Below the pieces are notes generated by a model. The model saw only the letters and a program-made list of their open reading frames with translations, was not told where the DNA came from and ran no database searches. Source: Methanoculleus horonobensis (lineage in GTDB: Archaea > Halobacteriota > Methanomicrobia > Methanomicrobiales > Methanoculleaceae). Taken from it: a stretch of 64,000 bases of DNA. The translations under genes and the position numbers were made by a program. The stretch lies in assembly GCF_001602375.1 (NCBI RefSeq), contig NZ_BCNY01000004.1:1-64000 (forward strand), written 5' to 3'. This document shows, one piece after another, positions 47,907 to 54,685 of this stretch. Numbering within the stretch: the stretch's first letter is position 1; each line of letters starts with the position of its first letter.

Positions 47907-48608
47907 ATGTTCGGACGTTACAGAGGCACTTTTCGCCGTGAATACAACGATATTCTGGTGGAAGCCGAGAGCGCCGGAGGTCTCCTGACCTACCGGCGCA
48001 GGTGCGAAGGGAAGACGTTCGAGCGGATCCTGGTCTCGAATACGGGGGAGGTGGTCATCAACCCGGTCGAGCCGGTCAACCTCCCCAAGGAGATCACGAA
48101 TTTCCTGCAGGTGGAGTTCTCCCCGATGATGATCGAGCCCGGCGCTTCCCGGACGGTCTACCTGAAGTTCCCCGTCGAGATCGGCGTCTTCGTGGAGTCT
48201 GCGCGGGATATCGAGGTGCTGGATGTTTTTGCTCTCGGCACCCAGAAATATGCGCTCTACGGCTCGCCGACGAATGGGGTCATCGCCCGGTACTACGAGA
48301 GCGTGGTCTACCCGGAGATCCCTTCCGTCGATCCCTTCCGCGAGGGGGTGATGGAACTCTCCATCCACAATACCTGCCGCGAGTGGGTGGAGGTGTCCCG
48401 GGTTGTCTTTGAGAGTACCGATATGAAGATCTACTACGGTGACTTCGTGGCGGCCACCGCCACGATGAAACTTCTCACCAAGACTATGGCGGAGACGGAC
48501 TTCATCGACGCCCCGCTCCGGCCCGGGATGGTGAAGTCCGTCGAGCTCTACACGGCCCGCAAGATCCCGGCTATCGACCGCGGATACCTGATGGAGTGGG
48601 GTCTCTGA
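47907..48608 (+). CDS. DUF432 family protein
   Basis: 233 residues, beta-rich, no signal or membrane segment. It matches archaeal DUF432 (FGRYRGTFRREYNDILVEAE near the start; EFSPMMIEPGASRTVYLKFP), a family of unknown function that is regularly found next to MscS channels, as here. The stop and MscS start overlap by one base (TGATG). ATG 47907 is used, three bases after an alternative TTG. A TATTAATATT-like box (47873-47884) lies ~25 bases upstream. Confidence 0.8.
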   Translation: MFGRYRGTFRREYNDILVEAESAGGLLTYRRRCEGKTFERILVSNTGEVVINPVEPVNLPKEITNFLQVEFSPMMIEPGASRTVYLKFPVEIGVFVESARDIEVLDVFALGTQKYALYGSPTNGVIARYYESVVYPEIPSVDPFREGVMELSIHNTCREWVEVSRVVFESTDMKIYYGDFVAATATMKLLTKTMAETDFIDAPLRPGMVKSVELYTARKIPAIDRGYLMEWGL

Positions 48609-49468
48609 TGGCGTTCAACGTGACAGAGATCTTCGAGATCCCGATCGGCGTCGGGGATATCACCGTCGAGCGCCTCCTGTACTTCGCCGTTATCCTCACG
48701 GTCGGCGTTATAATCGCGAAGGTTGTCGCGACGAACGTCCGGCGGGCTCTCTCGGAACGGTTGCCCGTGAACGAGCGCGAACTGCTCGCGAAACTGGTCT
48801 ACTACGTCATCATCGTCTGGGCGTTCGTCGTCGCTCTCCCGCAGCTCGAATTCGACCTCTCCGGTCTCCTGGTGGCCGGGGGCATCGCCGGGCTGGTCAT
48901 CGGTTTTGCGAGCCAGAGCGTTGTTTCCAACCTGATCTCCGGGCTCTTTTTGATGTTCGAGCACCCGATCCGGATCGGCGACAACATCAACGTCGCCGAC
49001 GTGAGCGGGAGTGTCGAGGACATCCGTGTCCTCTCGACCGTCATCAAGACCTATGACGGGATCTACATCCGGATCCCAAACGAGAAGGTCTTCACCTCGA
49101 ACATCACGAACTACGTCCATAACGCGGCCCGGAGGTTCGAATACCGGATCGGCATCCGGTACCAGGACGACGCCAATGCAGCGATCCGGATCGCACGAGA
49201 GGTCATCGAGACCCACCCCTTCGCGCTCAAGAGCCCGGCGCCGTCGGTCTTCGTCGATAATCTGGGGGACAACAGCGTCAACCTGACCGCCTACATCTGG
49301 GCGCCGGCCCGGAACTGGTGGGACGTCCGGACGGATCTCCTCTGGAAGATCAAACAGGCGCTTGAAGAGAACGGCATCGAGATACCCCTCCCGCAGCGTA
49401 CCGTCCGGTTTGTGGACGGGTCTGAGGGGAAGAACCGGGGTGGGGAGATGAACGGAGAGGACGAGTAA
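48608..49468 (+). CDS. MscS-family mechanosensitive ion channel
   Basis: 286 residues. Three membrane helices are predicted (about 22-40, 65-82, 88-112), the last being the pore helix (LVAGGIAGLVIGFASQSVVSNLISG). The beta domain follows (FEHPIRIGDNINVADVSGSVEDI; RIPNEKVFTSNITNY), then the cytoplasmic cage domain. It opens on membrane tension to release solutes after osmotic downshock. Coupled to DUF432, which may modify or gate it. Confidence 0.9.
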   Translation: MAFNVTEIFEIPIGVGDITVERLLYFAVILTVGVIIAKVVATNVRRALSERLPVNERELLAKLVYYVIIVWAFVVALPQLEFDLSGLLVAGGIAGLVIGFASQSVVSNLISGLFLMFEHPIRIGDNINVADVSGSVEDIRVLSTVIKTYDGIYIRIPNEKVFTSNITNYVHNAARRFEYRIGIRYQDDANAAIRIAREVIETHPFALKSPAPSVFVDNLGDNSVNLTAYIWAPARNWWDVRTDLLWKIKQALEENGIEIPLPQRTVRFVDGSEGKNRGGEMNGEDE

Positions 49469-49475
49469 CCCTACT

Positions 49476-50141
49476 TTACCCCACCCGGTGCGTCTTCCCG
49501 ACGCCGCCGGGCAAGAACGACTCCGGGTAGCGCTCCGCGAGTTCCTCGATCCGGTTGGTGCAGTGCGACACCGAGAGGTACGCCACCCCTGCGAGCGCGT
49601 CGATCTCCTCGCCGGAGACGGTGTGGACCCCGCCGATGATGCCCCGAACCGGCCCGAGATCCGAGACCCGCTCGATGATCCGGCCGATGTGGGGATGTGC
49701 GCACCCGGTGACGACCAGGTAACCACCCGGCGTCGATAGTACGAGCGACTGCTCCCGGATATCCGTTCCGAGCGGCCCGGTCACGGCGATGCCGTTCGCG
49801 ATCTCCGTCCGCTCCGTCACGATCCGCGGCTCGGTATACTTCCGGATCAGCGAGAGCGTCGTTTCCGAGAATGCGTCGTGGACATAGACCTCAATTGCCG
49901 GGTTTGCAGCAAGAACCGCTTCGATGCCGCCGGTATGGTCCCAGTGGTCGTGGGAGAGGACGAGGCGCCGGATGCCCGCAGGACCGATGCCGAGCGCCCG
50001 CATATTGGATAGGAGCACGTCTCCTTTAGCCCCGGTGTCGAAGAGCAGCCCCGCTTCCTCTATCAGGCAGGAGAATCCCCAGTCCGCCGTGAGCCCCTCA
50101 CGGCAGGGGATGTTGTTGTAGACTTCGGTCACTGTGAACAT
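49476..50141 (-). CDS. Metallo-beta-lactamase fold hydrolase (COG1237-like)
   Basis: 221 residues. The canonical metal motif is SHDHWDHTGG (H-x-H-x-D-H), with further ligands in GCAHPH and SVSHCTN. The order and spacing resemble the archaeal COG1237 group, some of which act in the tetrahydromethanopterin or other cofactor pathways; the substrate here is not clear. It converges on MscS with a seven-base gap. Confidence 0.8.
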   Translation of the reverse strand: MFTVTEVYNNIPCREGLTADWGFSCLIEEAGLLFDTGAKGDVLLSNMRALGIGPAGIRRLVLSHDHWDHTGGIEAVLAANPAIEVYVHDAFSETTLSLIRKYTEPRIVTERTEIANGIAVTGPLGTDIREQSLVLSTPGGYLVVTGCAHPHIGRIIERVSDLGPVRGIIGGVHTVSGEEIDALAGVAYLSVSHCTNRIEELAERYPESFLPGGVGKTHRVG

Positions 50142-50255
50142 AGAAAAGACTCCGCCTTTTTGGTCTCTCCTCAGAGGCGATTATGCTTTCCGATGGGGCA
50201 GTCCGGGGTTCGGAGCCCCCGGATCTCACAGACGAAAAAGAGGTGGTAGAGGTGA

Positions 50256-51002
50256 TCAGGAGATGATGTAGGAGATGGAGACGGTGGCGGTCACGTCGAT
50301 CTCGCCGACCTCGAGCGGGGTTGCGACGGCTGAACCCGCCGCCTTCTCCATCATATTGTAGCGACCGTCGTAGGCCATGGGCACGTAGCTGCCGCCGACG
50401 TTGACCTCTTTGACGTCGACGATGGTCTTGCCGATGGCCGCGGCGACGGCGTCGGCGTCACCCCGTGCCTGTGCGACCGCGGCGGTCAGGGCCTGCGACC
50501 GGAACTCCTGCTGCTTTGCGTCGCTCAGGGTGAACGCGAACCGGTTGACCTTGTTTGCACCGTTCGCGACCGCGAGGTCGACGATCTCGCCTGCGCGGTT
50601 CACGTCGTTCATCGTGACCTCGAGGCTGTTGACGACCCGGTAGTACTTGACCTTCGACGTTGTCAGGCCCCGGCTGTCGGTCTCGGTCACCGGGATGATG
50701 TTGTAGCCGGCGGTCCTGATGTCTTTCTCCGGGATGCCCGCCCTCTTCAGTGCGTTGACCACAGCGTCCATCCTCTCGGCGTTCTGCTGCTGTGCTGTCT
50801 TGACGTCGGTGTTCTCGGTCTCGACCGCGAAGACGACGACGGCCTCATCAGGCGTGGTCGTCACTTTGCCCGTGCCGGAGACATGGATCAGTTTGTCCCT
50901 GGATTCCTCCGGCAACTGTGCGGTGACGTTGCCGATCACCGCGGCACAGAGAACCATCAGGGCGATCCCCAGAAGTGCTGCTTTTCCTCGCATAGATATC
51001 AA
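50256..51002 (-). CDS. SIMPL-domain (DUF541) secreted protein
   Basis: 248 residues. A signal peptide at 1-~29 (KAALLGIALMVLCAAVIGNVTA) is followed by the SIMPL/DUF541 domain (HVSGTGKVTTTPDEAVVVFAV; AVVNALKRAGIPEKDIRTAGYN; ANKVNRFAFTLSD). SIMPL proteins form oligomers and are linked to stress resistance in bacteria; the archaeal role is unknown. A TATTTATTTT box (51021-51032, minus strand) lies ~20-30 bases before the start. Confidence 0.85.
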   Translation of the reverse strand: MISMRGKAALLGIALMVLCAAVIGNVTAQLPEESRDKLIHVSGTGKVTTTPDEAVVVFAVETENTDVKTAQQQNAERMDAVVNALKRAGIPEKDIRTAGYNIIPVTETDSRGLTTSKVKYYRVVNSLEVTMNDVNRAGEIVDLAVANGANKVNRFAFTLSDAKQQEFRSQALTAAVAQARGDADAVAAAIGKTIVDVKEVNVGGSYVPMAYDGRYNMMEKAAGSAVATPLEVGEIDVTATVSISYIIS

Positions 51003-51114: not shown

Positions 51115-51792
51115 TCACCCGTCACCGGCATCGGTTCGCCATCCGGCCGCCGCCACCAGGCGGGCGATCAGAACGGCGATGTAGAGCGTCCCGCTCACGG
51201 TCTCGAGCACGGCGAGCGATCTGGCCTGGTCGGTGATCGGCGTGATGTCGCCGTAACCAAGCGTCGCAAGGGTGACGAAACTGTAGTAGATGAACGCAGG
51301 AAAGGTGAGAACCTCTCCCGGCCCGGCCGAGAACGATCCCGGGGTGATGCCCTCGACGAGATCGTAGGCCGTCGCCCAGGTGAGACCCATGAGGAGGTAG
51401 ACGGAGACCGCGCCGTAGATGGTGTCGGTGGTGATCCGCTGTGTCCCGAGCACCCTCGAGAGGCCGACAAGCGCGGTGAAGGCGTAGAAGAGGAGCGTGA
51501 AGACGCTCTCGGCGCTGCCGAGTGCCGGGTTCCCGGTGATGACCTGGAGCCAGCCGAGGCCGAAGGCGGGGACAGCGAGGAGGACGGCAATCACGACCTG
51601 CCGTCGCCGATTGCTCACGGCGTAGACACCGGTGATCAGGACGAAGGACGAGAGCACCTTCAGGGCGACCGGGCCGCTCGGCCCTGCGCTCACGTAGGGG
51701 TAGACGGCGAGCAGGAGGACGAGCGACGCGAGGAGGTAGTGGAACTGCATCTTTCTCGCGCGTGCGAGGTACCGGGAAAGAAGGTTCTTCAC
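51115..51792 (-). CDS. Potassium channel protein (pore-loop type, no RCK domain)
   Basis: 225 residues, six or seven hydrophobic helices. The K+ selectivity filter is TLATLGYGD at 174-182, between a pore helix and the last helix (TVSGTLYIAVLIARLVAA). The chain ends 15 residues after that helix, so the regulatory RCK domain found on many archaeal K+ channels is absent, and there is no charged S4-like voltage sensor beyond an RRR at 62-64. GTG 51792 overlaps the kinase stop as GTGA; ATG 51750 is the alternative. Last gene of the FHA-kinase-channel operon. Confidence 0.82.
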   Translation of the reverse strand: MKNLLSRYLARARKMQFHYLLASLVLLLAVYPYVSAGPSGPVALKVLSSFVLITGVYAVSNRRRQVVIAVLLAVPAFGLGWLQVITGNPALGSAESVFTLLFYAFTALVGLSRVLGTQRITTDTIYGAVSVYLLMGLTWATAYDLVEGITPGSFSAGPGEVLTFPAFIYYSFVTLATLGYGDITPITDQARSLAVLETVSGTLYIAVLIARLVAAAGWRTDAGDG

Positions 51793-53084
51793 GGCTTCTC
51801 CGCTCCTGCATCGCCCGTCAATGCCTCGATCGCCTCGAGGAGTTCGGCGGCGGATTGGTAGCGGTCGCCGGGATCTTTGGCGAGGCACCGGAGGATGATC
51901 GGGTCGAGTCGTGCAAGTTTCGGGTCGATCTCCGAGGGAGGGACGGGCTGCTCGCGGATGATTGCTTCGGCCAGCCCGGCGAGGCTCTCGCGGGCGTTGG
52001 GCGGCTTCCCCGTCACCAGTTCGTAGAAGACGGCGCCGAGCTGGTAGATGTCCGTCCGTGCGTCGGCCCTGCCGAACCGTTCCGGGGCGATCTGCTCCGG
52101 GGCCGCGTAGGCGAGGGTGAACCCTGCGATGGCGGTGTCCCGGCTCGCCGCCAGTGTCGTGCTCATCCCCCAGTCGGTGATCTTCGGCGTCAGGTCGCCG
52201 GAAAGAAGGATGTTGCTTGGCTTGATGTCCCGATGAATCACACCCTTTTCGTGGGCGTAGGCGATCCCTGCGGTGATGCCTGCAGCGATGCGGACGGCGG
52301 TCTCCGGCGGGAGGGGTTTTTCCAGGCCCTCCAGCGTCCGTGGGAGGTATTCCATCTCGACAAATGGGACCGGGAGGATGTTGACCGAGTAGACCGCCAC
52401 GATGTTTTCGTGGACGAGGTCTTCCCAGAACCGCATCTCCTTCATGAAGGTCCTCCCCGTCGCCTCGTCGTAGGCGGCCGGGATCTTCACCGCTACGGTT
52501 CGACGGTCATCGCGCCGGACCGCCGAGAAGACCTGCCCGAGCCCTCCTCTCCCGACAAAGGCGACCCGGTCGTAGCGCTCCGCAAGTTCGGGTGGGAACC
52601 CTGCCGGGCGGGAGAGCACTGTCCGGTATGCATCGGCAAGGATGGTCGCGGCGGCCCCTGTCTCCTCTCCGGCCGGCCGCTTCAGGTACCAGGCGCCAAC
52701 GACCCCTCCACCGAGCAGTACGAGAGCCAGAGCGACCCCGAGCCAGGGGGACGGGCTATTGTCGGCCGGATTATCCTGTTCGGGGGCAGCCCCCCCGGTC
52801 GGGGTTGCCGTCGCCACTGTCGGGGTTCCGCCGGGGGTGACGGTCGGGTCAGCCGGGGGCTGAGGTGTGGGCGTCTCTTCTGGTGCACCTCCGCCCTTGT
52901 TCGGGCCGGAACCGGCGTTCTTATCGTTGTTAGGGCTATTTCCGGCGGATTCGATGCCCTGGGGGGAGGCGCTTGAGTGTTCGGGCGGCCCTCCGGCGCC
53001 CGAGACGGCAGGAGCGAAGGCTGCGAGAAGCAGCGCGGCGACGAAGAGCAGGACGGCCGCTCGCCCGGCCCGGTCAGGCGGCAT
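51789..53084 (-). CDS. Membrane-bound Hanks-type serine/threonine protein kinase
   Basis: 431 residues. A hydrophobic signal-like segment (8-30), a long Pro/Thr/Gly-rich low-complexity stretch (31-112, probably outside the cell), one membrane helix (114-134), and a cytoplasmic kinase domain (172-431). All catalytic elements are present: glycine loop GRGGLGQVF (178-186), K200 (VAVK), E216, HRDIKPSN (284-291) and D304, though the DFG motif is DWG; an APE motif follows. It overlaps the HTH-FHA gene by 11 bases and the K+ channel gene by 4, so the three products should be co-made. Confidence 0.88.
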   Translation of the reverse strand: MPPDRAGRAAVLLFVAALLLAAFAPAVSGAGGPPEHSSASPQGIESAGNSPNNDKNAGSGPNKGGGAPEETPTPQPPADPTVTPGGTPTVATATPTGGAAPEQDNPADNSPSPWLGVALALVLLGGGVVGAWYLKRPAGEETGAAATILADAYRTVLSRPAGFPPELAERYDRVAFVGRGGLGQVFSAVRRDDRRTVAVKIPAAYDEATGRTFMKEMRFWEDLVHENIVAVYSVNILPVPFVEMEYLPRTLEGLEKPLPPETAVRIAAGITAGIAYAHEKGVIHRDIKPSNILLSGDLTPKITDWGMSTTLAASRDTAIAGFTLAYAAPEQIAPERFGRADARTDIYQLGAVFYELVTGKPPNARESLAGLAEAIIREQPVPPSEIDPKLARLDPIILRCLAKDPGDRYQSAAELLEAIEALTGDAGAEKP

Positions 53085-53874
53085 CCGGCACCGGCACCCC
53101 CCCGGGAATGACGAAGACGAGGGTTGCCCCCGGCGCGCCTTTCGCGAGTTCAATGAGGTCCCCGTCGTGAAGTTCCCGCTGCTTGCCCGGTTCAAGCGGC
53201 GTGCCGTTCACGAAGGTGCCGCCCGTGCTGCCGCAGTCCTCGATCAGCCAGGTGCCGTCCACCCGGCGGCGGGTGAGCCGGGCGTGCGGCTTCGAGACGC
53301 GGGTGACCGCCGCGTATGCCTCGCCGAGGACGATCGCCTCTCCGGCCCGTTCGGGCGTTCCCGGGTCAGCCCGGCCTACGGGGATGCTCTCCCCGGCGAG
53401 CGCAAAGACCCTGCCGTCCTCCGCGCCCCCGAGGAGGATGACGGCCGGGGGCTGCCCGGAGAACTCTCCCGAGAACGTCTCCCGGACACCGGCGAGTCTT
53501 TTCGCGAGCACGGAGTCCGTGAGGGTCAGTCTCAGGTTCGCAAACAGTCCGAGGCTCCTTGTGATCGCTTCGAGCCCCCCGGGCACGATCGAGTATTTCC
53601 AGACCGGATGAACCCCCTTTGCGGTCGGGCGCGAGAGGCCGGCCTCTTTGCGGACGACCCCGATACTCATCAGTTTGTCGAGATGCTTCTTTGTGTTCTC
53701 GTAACTCGTCTCGATCGCGGCCGAGATCTGCCGGACGTCCTTCGGGCTTCGTTCGATGGCTTTCAGAATCTTCAAACGCGTGCTGCTGCTCAGCACGTCC
53801 AGGTATTCGGAGAGCTCCTGCAGGTCGTCGTTGTCTACATCGAGGATAAGCGTTCTTGAGTCGTCGTCGGTCAT
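53074..53874 (-). CDS. Winged-helix (ArsR-like) regulator fused to an FHA domain
   Basis: 266 residues. N-terminal winged helix (about 18-100; LDVLSSSTRLKILKAIERSP and SYENTKKHLDKLMSIGVVRKE), a middle region (100-160), and a C-terminal FHA domain (160-255) with the phosphothreonine-binding residues in GRAD, SKPHARLTRR and STGGTFVNGT. FHA domains bind phosphothreonine, so this DNA-binding protein is a likely substrate or reader of the adjacent kinase. It is the first gene of the operon. The combination of HTH and FHA in one archaeal chain is uncommon to my knowledge. Confidence 0.85.
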   Translation of the reverse strand: MTDDDSRTLILDVDNDDLQELSEYLDVLSSSTRLKILKAIERSPKDVRQISAAIETSYENTKKHLDKLMSIGVVRKEAGLSRPTAKGVHPVWKYSIVPGGLEAITRSLGLFANLRLTLTDSVLAKRLAGVRETFSGEFSGQPPAVILLGGAEDGRVFALAGESIPVGRADPGTPERAGEAIVLGEAYAAVTRVSKPHARLTRRRVDGTWLIEDCGSTGGTFVNGTPLEPGKQRELHDGDLIELAKGAPGATLVFVIPGGVPVPDAA

Positions 53875-54040
53875 AGGCTCTCGTGCGGGACTCCGTTGCT
53901 GTATGTTTTAACGAGGTCTCTGATGAAGGTTGTGCACCACGACGGGCGGCGAACCGTGCCGGCACGCTCCGGTTGACGCCGCCCGGTGCACGGTCGTACC
54001 CCGGATCATATTTTATACGAAGGGTGCGATCGGGGGCGGC

Positions 54041-54325
54041 ATGCTTGGAGATATCGAGACCCTGCAACGGCAGGCCATGATGGTGGAGATCGAGGAGATC
54101 ATCCAGGCGACGCCCGACTACACCGATGTCAGGGAGGCGCTCCGTTCGTTGAACTTCATACCGGAGCAGGACGATGCCGACGTTGCGATATGGGTGCAGC
54201 CCGAACTCGGGATCTTCGTCCTCCTGCAGATGAACCTCGGGGGCGGGTATGCGGGCTACCGGGTGGTCGCCTCCGACGACCTGGAAGGCCGCGATGAGAG
54301 TCCTGTCGGTTTCAACGCCCGGTAG
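54041..54325 (+). CDS. Small conserved protein, unknown function (paralogue A)
   Basis: 94 residues, acidic. It resembles the next gene's product: YTDVREALRSLNFIPEQDDADVAIW here versus YDEVREILGSLGFQAKEDRPALALW there. No known domain recognised. A TATTTTATAC box (54007-54017) lies ~25-30 bases before ATG 54041, so the mRNA is probably leaderless; this supports the start over the longer frame from 53930. Confidence 0.6.
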   Translation: MLGDIETLQRQAMMVEIEEIIQATPDYTDVREALRSLNFIPEQDDADVAIWVQPELGIFVLLQMNLGGGYAGYRVVASDDLEGRDESPVGFNAR

Positions 54326-54418
54326 GGGGTCTCTCCCTTCGAGACCCGCCGGCAGGCTCACTCTTCGATCGCCTCCACCGGGTCAGATTTATCCGGGCGT
54401 ATGCAGTATGGTTGGCGC

Positions 54419-54685
54419 ATGCCGGAACAGGTTCCTATCGACCGGGATGCACAGGAGGCCATGGAGGCCAGGATCAGGGAGATGTTCGCCGCGAACCCCA
54501 CCTACGACGAGGTCCGGGAGATCCTCGGATCGCTCGGGTTCCAGGCAAAGGAGGACAGGCCCGCCCTTGCTCTCTGGGAGAGCGGCGAGCACGAACTCTT
54601 CGTGCTGGTTCATATCGACCCGAAGACCGGGACGTTGCGCGACCACGCGGTGAGCACTTTCGAGGAGATGGAGGGGTTCGAGTAG
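54419..54685 (+). CDS. Small conserved protein, unknown function (paralogue B)
   Basis: 88 residues from ATG 54419 (ATG 54401 is possible). Shares with the upstream gene a pattern of helix (AMEARIREMFAANPTYDEVREIL), strand pairs and LFVLVHIDPKTGT matching IFVLLQMNLGGGY. A tandem duplication with its own weak box (AGATTTATC, 54383-54391). Function unknown; the alternating helix-strand pattern suggests a small alpha/beta domain. Confidence 0.6.
   Translation: MPEQVPIDRDAQEAMEARIREMFAANPTYDEVREILGSLGFQAKEDRPALALWESGEHELFVLVHIDPKTGTLRDHAVSTFEEMEGFE

Follow-up and report, generated by a model that had tools for sequence, protein, structure and literature searches.

What does a membrane Ser/Thr kinase act upon when its gene overlaps, on one side, the gene of a DNA-binding protein with a phosphothreonine-reading domain and, on the other, that of a K+ channel? 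The question is raised by a locus in Methanoculleus horonobensis where, within the 64,000-nucleotide stretch of contig NZ_BCNY01000004.1 that we analysed (the window), genes for an HTH-FHA protein, a membrane Ser/Thr kinase and a K+ channel follow one another co-directionally on the minus strand. An earlier note on this DNA had described the three as coupled through overlaps of 11 and 4 bases, and this is indeed their arrangement (HTH-FHA/kinase, 53074-53084; kinase/channel, 51789-51792). It had further proposed that an external cue activates the kinase, which then both gates the channel by phosphorylation and passes a signal to DNA by way of the FHA protein. From upstream to downstream, the features of the locus are the following.

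53921 to 53934, minus strand: CACAACCTTCATCA, genus-conserved promoter element, about 50-60 bp before the HTH-FHA start (genus alignment and motif searches)
53902 to 53911, minus strand: TTAAAACATA, TATA-like box (read from sequence; conserved in the genus alignment)
53074 to 53874, minus strand: HTH-FHA protein, 266 aa, ATG start, with disordered N-tail, ArsR-type winged helix, linker helices and C-terminal FHA domain (Pfam, AlphaFold2 model)
53851 to 53853, minus strand: codon of Thr8, candidate phospho-acceptor in the disordered N-tail (TLIL; conservation, low pLDDT)
53590 to 53817, minus strand: winged helix-turn-helix, residues ~20-95, recognition helix SYENTKKHLD nearly invariant (Pfam, alignment, model)
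53110 to 53433, minus strand: FHA domain, residues ~148-255, with GR, S/T-x-x-H, STGGT and N (Pfam, alignment, Foldseek)
51789 to 53084, minus strand: membrane Ser/Thr kinase, 431 aa, ATG start (Pfam, family alignment; best PDB relative PknB)
52749 to 52997, minus strand: kinase ectodomain, P/T/G-rich, ~83 aa, after the signal peptide (read from sequence)
52680 to 52748, minus strand: kinase transmembrane helix, residues ~113-135 (read from sequence)
52575 to 52679, minus strand: juxtamembrane segment with TIL (Thr147) and TVL (Thr155), candidate FHA docking sites (T-phi-phi enrichment)
51840 to 52571, minus strand: protein kinase domain (PF00069; catalytic residues invariant)
51115 to 51792, minus strand: 6-helix K+ channel subunit, 225 aa, GTG start, filter TLGYGD, without RCK domain (Pfam, structure model)

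For the kinase, a start at the longer, mechanical TTG open reading frame was rejected and the ATG at 53084 taken. No Rfam match was found near the operon. Upstream of it and divergent (54029-54325 and 54401-54685, plus strand) are two small paralogous proteins, 33% identical, without a Pfam match; behind it (48596-51002) are a SIMPL/DUF541 protein, a metallo-beta-lactamase-fold protein and an MscS-type channel, and genus loci that lack the K+ channel have a series of open reading frames agreeing with this set in length and order.

Taken singly, the three proteins are much what the earlier note had made of them. The upstream protein joins an HTH_5/ArsR domain (E 1.1e-7) to an FHA domain (E 1.5e-13, 51.4 bits against a cut-off of 20.7), is the sole PF00498 match over cut-off in the window's genome, and has its closest named relatives in Methanoculleus (92-93%); against the ArsR metalloregulator subfamily profile NF033788 it scores 29.9 bits where 55 are needed. 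Conservation of the FHA residues GR (95/95), H197 (95/95), N223 (94/95) and S194 (Ser in 76, Thr in 17) predicts phosphothreonine binding. The motif STNGT reads STGGT, and the position that we take to be equivalent to Asn107 of Rad53 is Gly in 89/95, therefore the binding mode may differ. The kinase, credited earlier with all its catalytic residues, has a Pkinase domain (PF00069, residues 172-415, E 3.4e-39, 135 bits against 31.7), the only one over cut-off in the genome, with the K, E, HRD, D of DFG and APE of Hanks-type enzymes intact, and is predicted to be active; these residues are (nearly) invariant in 95 family members, with scattered exceptions at single positions, and DFG reads DWG throughout the 95 distinct systems. 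Read from sequence, the kinase begins with a signal peptide (~1-29), followed by an ectodomain (~30-112), one transmembrane helix (~113-135) and the cytoplasmic kinase. It resembles PknB-type PASTA kinases in its membrane anchor, and the PknB kinase domain is the closest among PDB entries; unlike them, it places a signal peptide and ectodomain ahead of the kinase, has no PASTA domain and carries DWG rather than DFG, and the PASTA kinase profile NF033483 is matched by the kinase part alone (198.9 bits against 450). Its relatives bear NosD beta-helix or PEGA ectodomains in place of the short, low-complexity, P/T-rich tail of the window's kinase, and the ectodomain thus appears to be interchangeable; an external cue may still be what activates the kinase. 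The start of this tail, short and GPPEH-like (residues ~30-50; also in the kinase of locus L117), recurs in Methanoculleus kinases, the remainder being low-complexity.

The third protein is, as described earlier, a K+ channel without an RCK domain: an Ion_trans_2 pore (E 6.5e-14, 52 bits against 22.5) with the TLGYGD filter and pore helices of KcsA-like and 6-TM K+ channels, from which it differs by four extra N-terminal helices and by the missing RCK domain. The model has four helices, then TM5, a pore helix and TM6, with the pore region at low confidence and no cytosolic domain. Is it, then, part of the signalling core? In the window's family (f1), every one of the 22 full-length channel homologues immediately follows a kinase gene, whereas elsewhere in Methanomicrobiales 0/30 are linked to one (in both cases among the matches listed). 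Even within the family the channel is sometimes absent: 7 of the 29 family kinases listed, a count that leaves out the genus genomes G124 and G160, both with kinase matches, have no adjacent channel (six in Methanoculleus, G080, G022, G148, G010, G004 and G132, and one, G139, in another genus). In G148, a draft genome, the kinase and HTH-FHA matches are on different contigs. A tree fits one gain of the channel at the family base followed by several losses, although support inside the genus is weak, and at that resolution the channel fits a later, family-level addition to the other two genes rather than a core component.

The earlier idea of a relay for ion balance, in which the kinase phosphorylates the channel directly to gate it and uses the FHA protein as a separate route to DNA, could draw on the 4-base overlap, on the unbroken linkage within the family and on two conserved residues of the cytosolic loops, S60 and T121. 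T121, however, is equally conserved in channel homologues that are unlinked to kinases, the tails are short and without conserved Ser/Thr, and the linkage ends at the family. The channel also has almost no cytosolic part. Direct gating is therefore unsupported, and we regard this relay as very unlikely; transcriptional co-regulation of the channel by the other two proteins is the likelier relationship.

What persists beyond the family is the pair formed by the HTH-FHA protein and the kinase. Among 199 Methanomicrobiales genomes, 136 gave a match to the HTH-FHA protein and 144 to the kinase, and for at least 116 of the 136 listed HTH-FHA matches the kinase lies directly downstream on the same strand. 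The loci L110, L111, L128 and L129 are among the remaining 20, yet have the kinase next door when read directly; conversely, some genomes of the order have kinase matches with no HTH-FHA neighbour among the matches listed. Outside the order, nothing better than weak, partial similarity to one domain, HTH or FHA, turned up in a phylum sample of 295 genomes. From all GTDB species, 80 named loci were retained; they are labelled as Methanomicrobiales or as compatible archaeal MAGs, and one MAG is labelled Thermoplasmata. In the genomes sampled, the pair is restricted to Methanomicrobiales. It is also multi-copy, with two or more systems in each of 23 genomes (49 systems), and there the distances between true partners correlate at r=0.82, compared with a mean of 0.31 after within-genome permutation of partners (0/5000). 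This co-duplication shows that the two genes are inherited as a unit, although correlation alone does not prove interaction and linkage alone could produce it. In two places (G161:C1:132488 and G097:C63:8090) the genes adjoin on opposite strands and not in tandem. In G023, G035, G129 and G196, reading past one TGA continues the HTH-FHA frame into an open frame of 316 to 1175 aa; in three of the four this suggests that the HTH-FHA protein and the kinase share one frame, split by one stop. A third partner may be nearby: at least 21 of 100 genomes of the order have a PP2C phosphatase gene within 3.1 kb of one or other gene of the pair, a minimum and not a rate because the places checked were chosen by eye from lists, and in 11 of these genomes the PP2C gene is 166-385 bases from the HTH-FHA match. 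The single PP2C gene of the window's genome is unlinked, on another contig.

Candidate traces of a phosphothreonine exchange are found in both proteins of the pair. In the HTH-FHA protein, residue 8 is Thr in 94/94 aligned systems and never Ser, in 50/50 in a further count, and in 80/80 named loci, many of them close relatives, where it stands a fixed 13 residues ahead of the anchor Leu21; the flanks are variable, with positions -6 to -1 reaching about half identity at most, and residues 1-13 are disordered in the AlphaFold2 monomer model (pLDDT<50). In the kinase, the motif T-phi-phi (T-[VILMF]-[VILMF]) occurs 32 times in the juxtamembrane segments of 45 non-redundant kinases, against 6.1±2.5 expected. 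The same count with Ser gives 8 against 8.2, that is, no enrichment, and with Ala 13 against 6.2, a mild one; T-phi-phi is not clearly enriched in ectodomain residues 30-80 (14 against 9.7) and is depleted in the kinase domain (20 against 47). The motif is absent from the last 40 juxtamembrane residues in 17 of the 45. This Thr-specific pattern, together with Thr8, fits the specificity of FHA domains for phosphothreonine. The activation-loop Thr was rejected as a general, sole FHA ligand because 14/95 activation segments contain no Thr. We conclude that the pair is the real unit of this locus, on the basis of its order-wide adjacency, its co-duplication and the FHA-ligand-like Thr motifs in both members. 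Of the relay envisaged in the earlier note, it is therefore the kinase and HTH-FHA pair that stands across the order; signalling from kinase to DNA through the FHA protein is upheld as far as this unit goes, and the biochemical steps that would carry it are our proposal.

Two other readings of these motifs deserve consideration. The FHA domain might serve as a membrane tether, the phosphorylated kinase holding the HTH-FHA protein away from DNA while phosphorylation of Thr8 plays no part. The juxtamembrane enrichment and the near-obligate pairing would both be expected of such a tether, but it leaves unexplained why a disordered tail keeps an invariant Thr that is never replaced by Ser, and we consider it unlikely. 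Thr8 might instead be structural, for example in an N-tail strand at a dimer interface, with the FHA domain reading other phosphoproteins and the pair acting as a broad regulator. Hanks kinases often have many substrates, the TLIL sequence at Thr8 is hydrophobic and strand-like, and dimer contacts are invisible in a monomer model; against this, the Thr is fixed while its flanking residues vary, in a pattern like that of the GarA, OdhI and DgcB tails, and a structural role seems to us rather doubtful.

The comparison with known systems points instead to a switch. The self-binding tails of DgcB and OdhI have hydrophobic residues at +2 and +3 (PMC6733907), and the HTH-FHA protein shares with GarA, OdhI and DgcB a conserved Thr in a disordered N-tail followed by such residues; there the Thr is read by the protein's own FHA domain, while here binding of the tail phosphothreonine to the FHA domain is predicted, the monomer model leaving the tail disordered. 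Foldseek matches to the HTH-FHA model include phospho-OdhI, the DgcB FHA-tail complex, PknB-GarA and EmbR (2ff4). By analogy, Thr8 and the juxtamembrane T-phi-phi motifs suggest a self-binding switch of the GarA/OdhI/DgcB type, with the difference that the outputs of those proteins are enzyme binding or a diguanylate cyclase and this one has a winged-helix DNA-binding domain in their stead. A close parallel for the pair as a whole is PknH-EmbR of Mycobacterium tuberculosis, likewise a membrane Hanks kinase and a transcription factor whose DNA-binding domain is N-terminal and whose FHA domain is C-terminal; phosphorylation there requires the FHA domain and enhances binding to promoters (PMC4601284). 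EmbR combines a SARP/OmpR-type DNA-binding domain with a BTA domain, whereas the HTH-FHA protein has an ArsR-type winged helix and no BTA (HTH_5/ArsR and FHA are its only Pfam domains over cut-off); and unlike PknH-EmbR, the methanogen pair is archaeal, order-specific and often accompanied by a linked PP2C. The pair may thus work like PknH-EmbR while falling, by its predicted domains, outside the EmbR family. Within the archaea, the ArnA-ArnB-ArnC/D network of Sulfolobus combines an FHA protein with eukaryotic-like kinases affecting gene expression (PMC6509490). ArnA, however, has a zinc finger, no HTH and a vWA protein as partner, and belongs to another lineage; in the HTH-FHA protein Pfam lists HTH families and no zinc finger before the FHA domain.

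As for the output, a candidate element lies in the upstream region of the HTH-FHA gene itself, where the block GCACAACCTTCATCA, followed by the TATA-like box, stands out in 25 aligned Methanoculleus sequences. The 14-base core of this element has one match in the window's genome at up to 1 mismatch, and 28/31 genomes of the genus have a match at the same stringency; in most genus genomes with both element and HTH-FHA gene, the element is 50-70 bp before the gene (positions compared by eye). Some genomes have matches elsewhere (e.g. G058, G096), several have extra ones, and in G080 the sole match at this threshold is on another contig, away from the HTH-FHA gene. The element is a candidate operator or core promoter. 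A repeated regulon motif was rejected, given the single match in the element's own genome and no second site visibly recurring across the genus; nor did any family-wide 7-mer, inverted repeat or direct repeat upstream of HTH-FHA rise clearly above shuffled sequences, leaving no family-wide operator motif.

From these observations we infer a general pathway, with stimulus, DNA target and channel role filled in by conjecture. The membrane kinase would autophosphorylate, and its juxtamembrane T-phi-phi phosphothreonine would serve as a docking site for the HTH-FHA protein encoded alongside it, which would bind there by its FHA domain. The docked kinase would then phosphorylate Thr8 in the disordered N-tail, and the phosphorylated tail would bind the FHA domain, its own or that of a partner protomer, freeing the protein from the kinase and altering DNA binding by the adjacent winged helix, until a PP2C phosphatase reset the module. 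The output would be transcriptional and would most likely extend to the promoter of the HTH-FHA gene itself; in the window's family, the K+ channel encoded downstream would thereby come under the same control. We consider it probable that the pair is such a dedicated, two-component-like phosphothreonine module, with its kinase, Thr8 switch, PP2C reset and transcriptional output. More tentatively, the whole may be an order-specific Ser/Thr counterpart of two-component systems, in which kinase ectodomains are swappable, phospho-Thr8 and juxtamembrane phosphothreonine compete for a single FHA pocket, PP2C acts as eraser, and the K+ channel was taken into an autoregulated operon in the window's family.

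The earlier note had thought its relay undescribed in methanogens, and for the HTH-FHA and kinase pair we likewise found no description there in the open-licence papers searched. The system is apparently an undescribed, order-specific variant of the kinase and FHA transcription factor theme exemplified by PknH-EmbR; in one family, a channel has joined it. Archaeal Ser/Thr phosphorylation pathways with a known writer, reader, eraser and output are few; here, a major order of methanogens encodes candidate parts for all four together, and the specific residues involved, Thr8 and the juxtamembrane T-phi-phi motifs, make the proposed mechanism directly testable.
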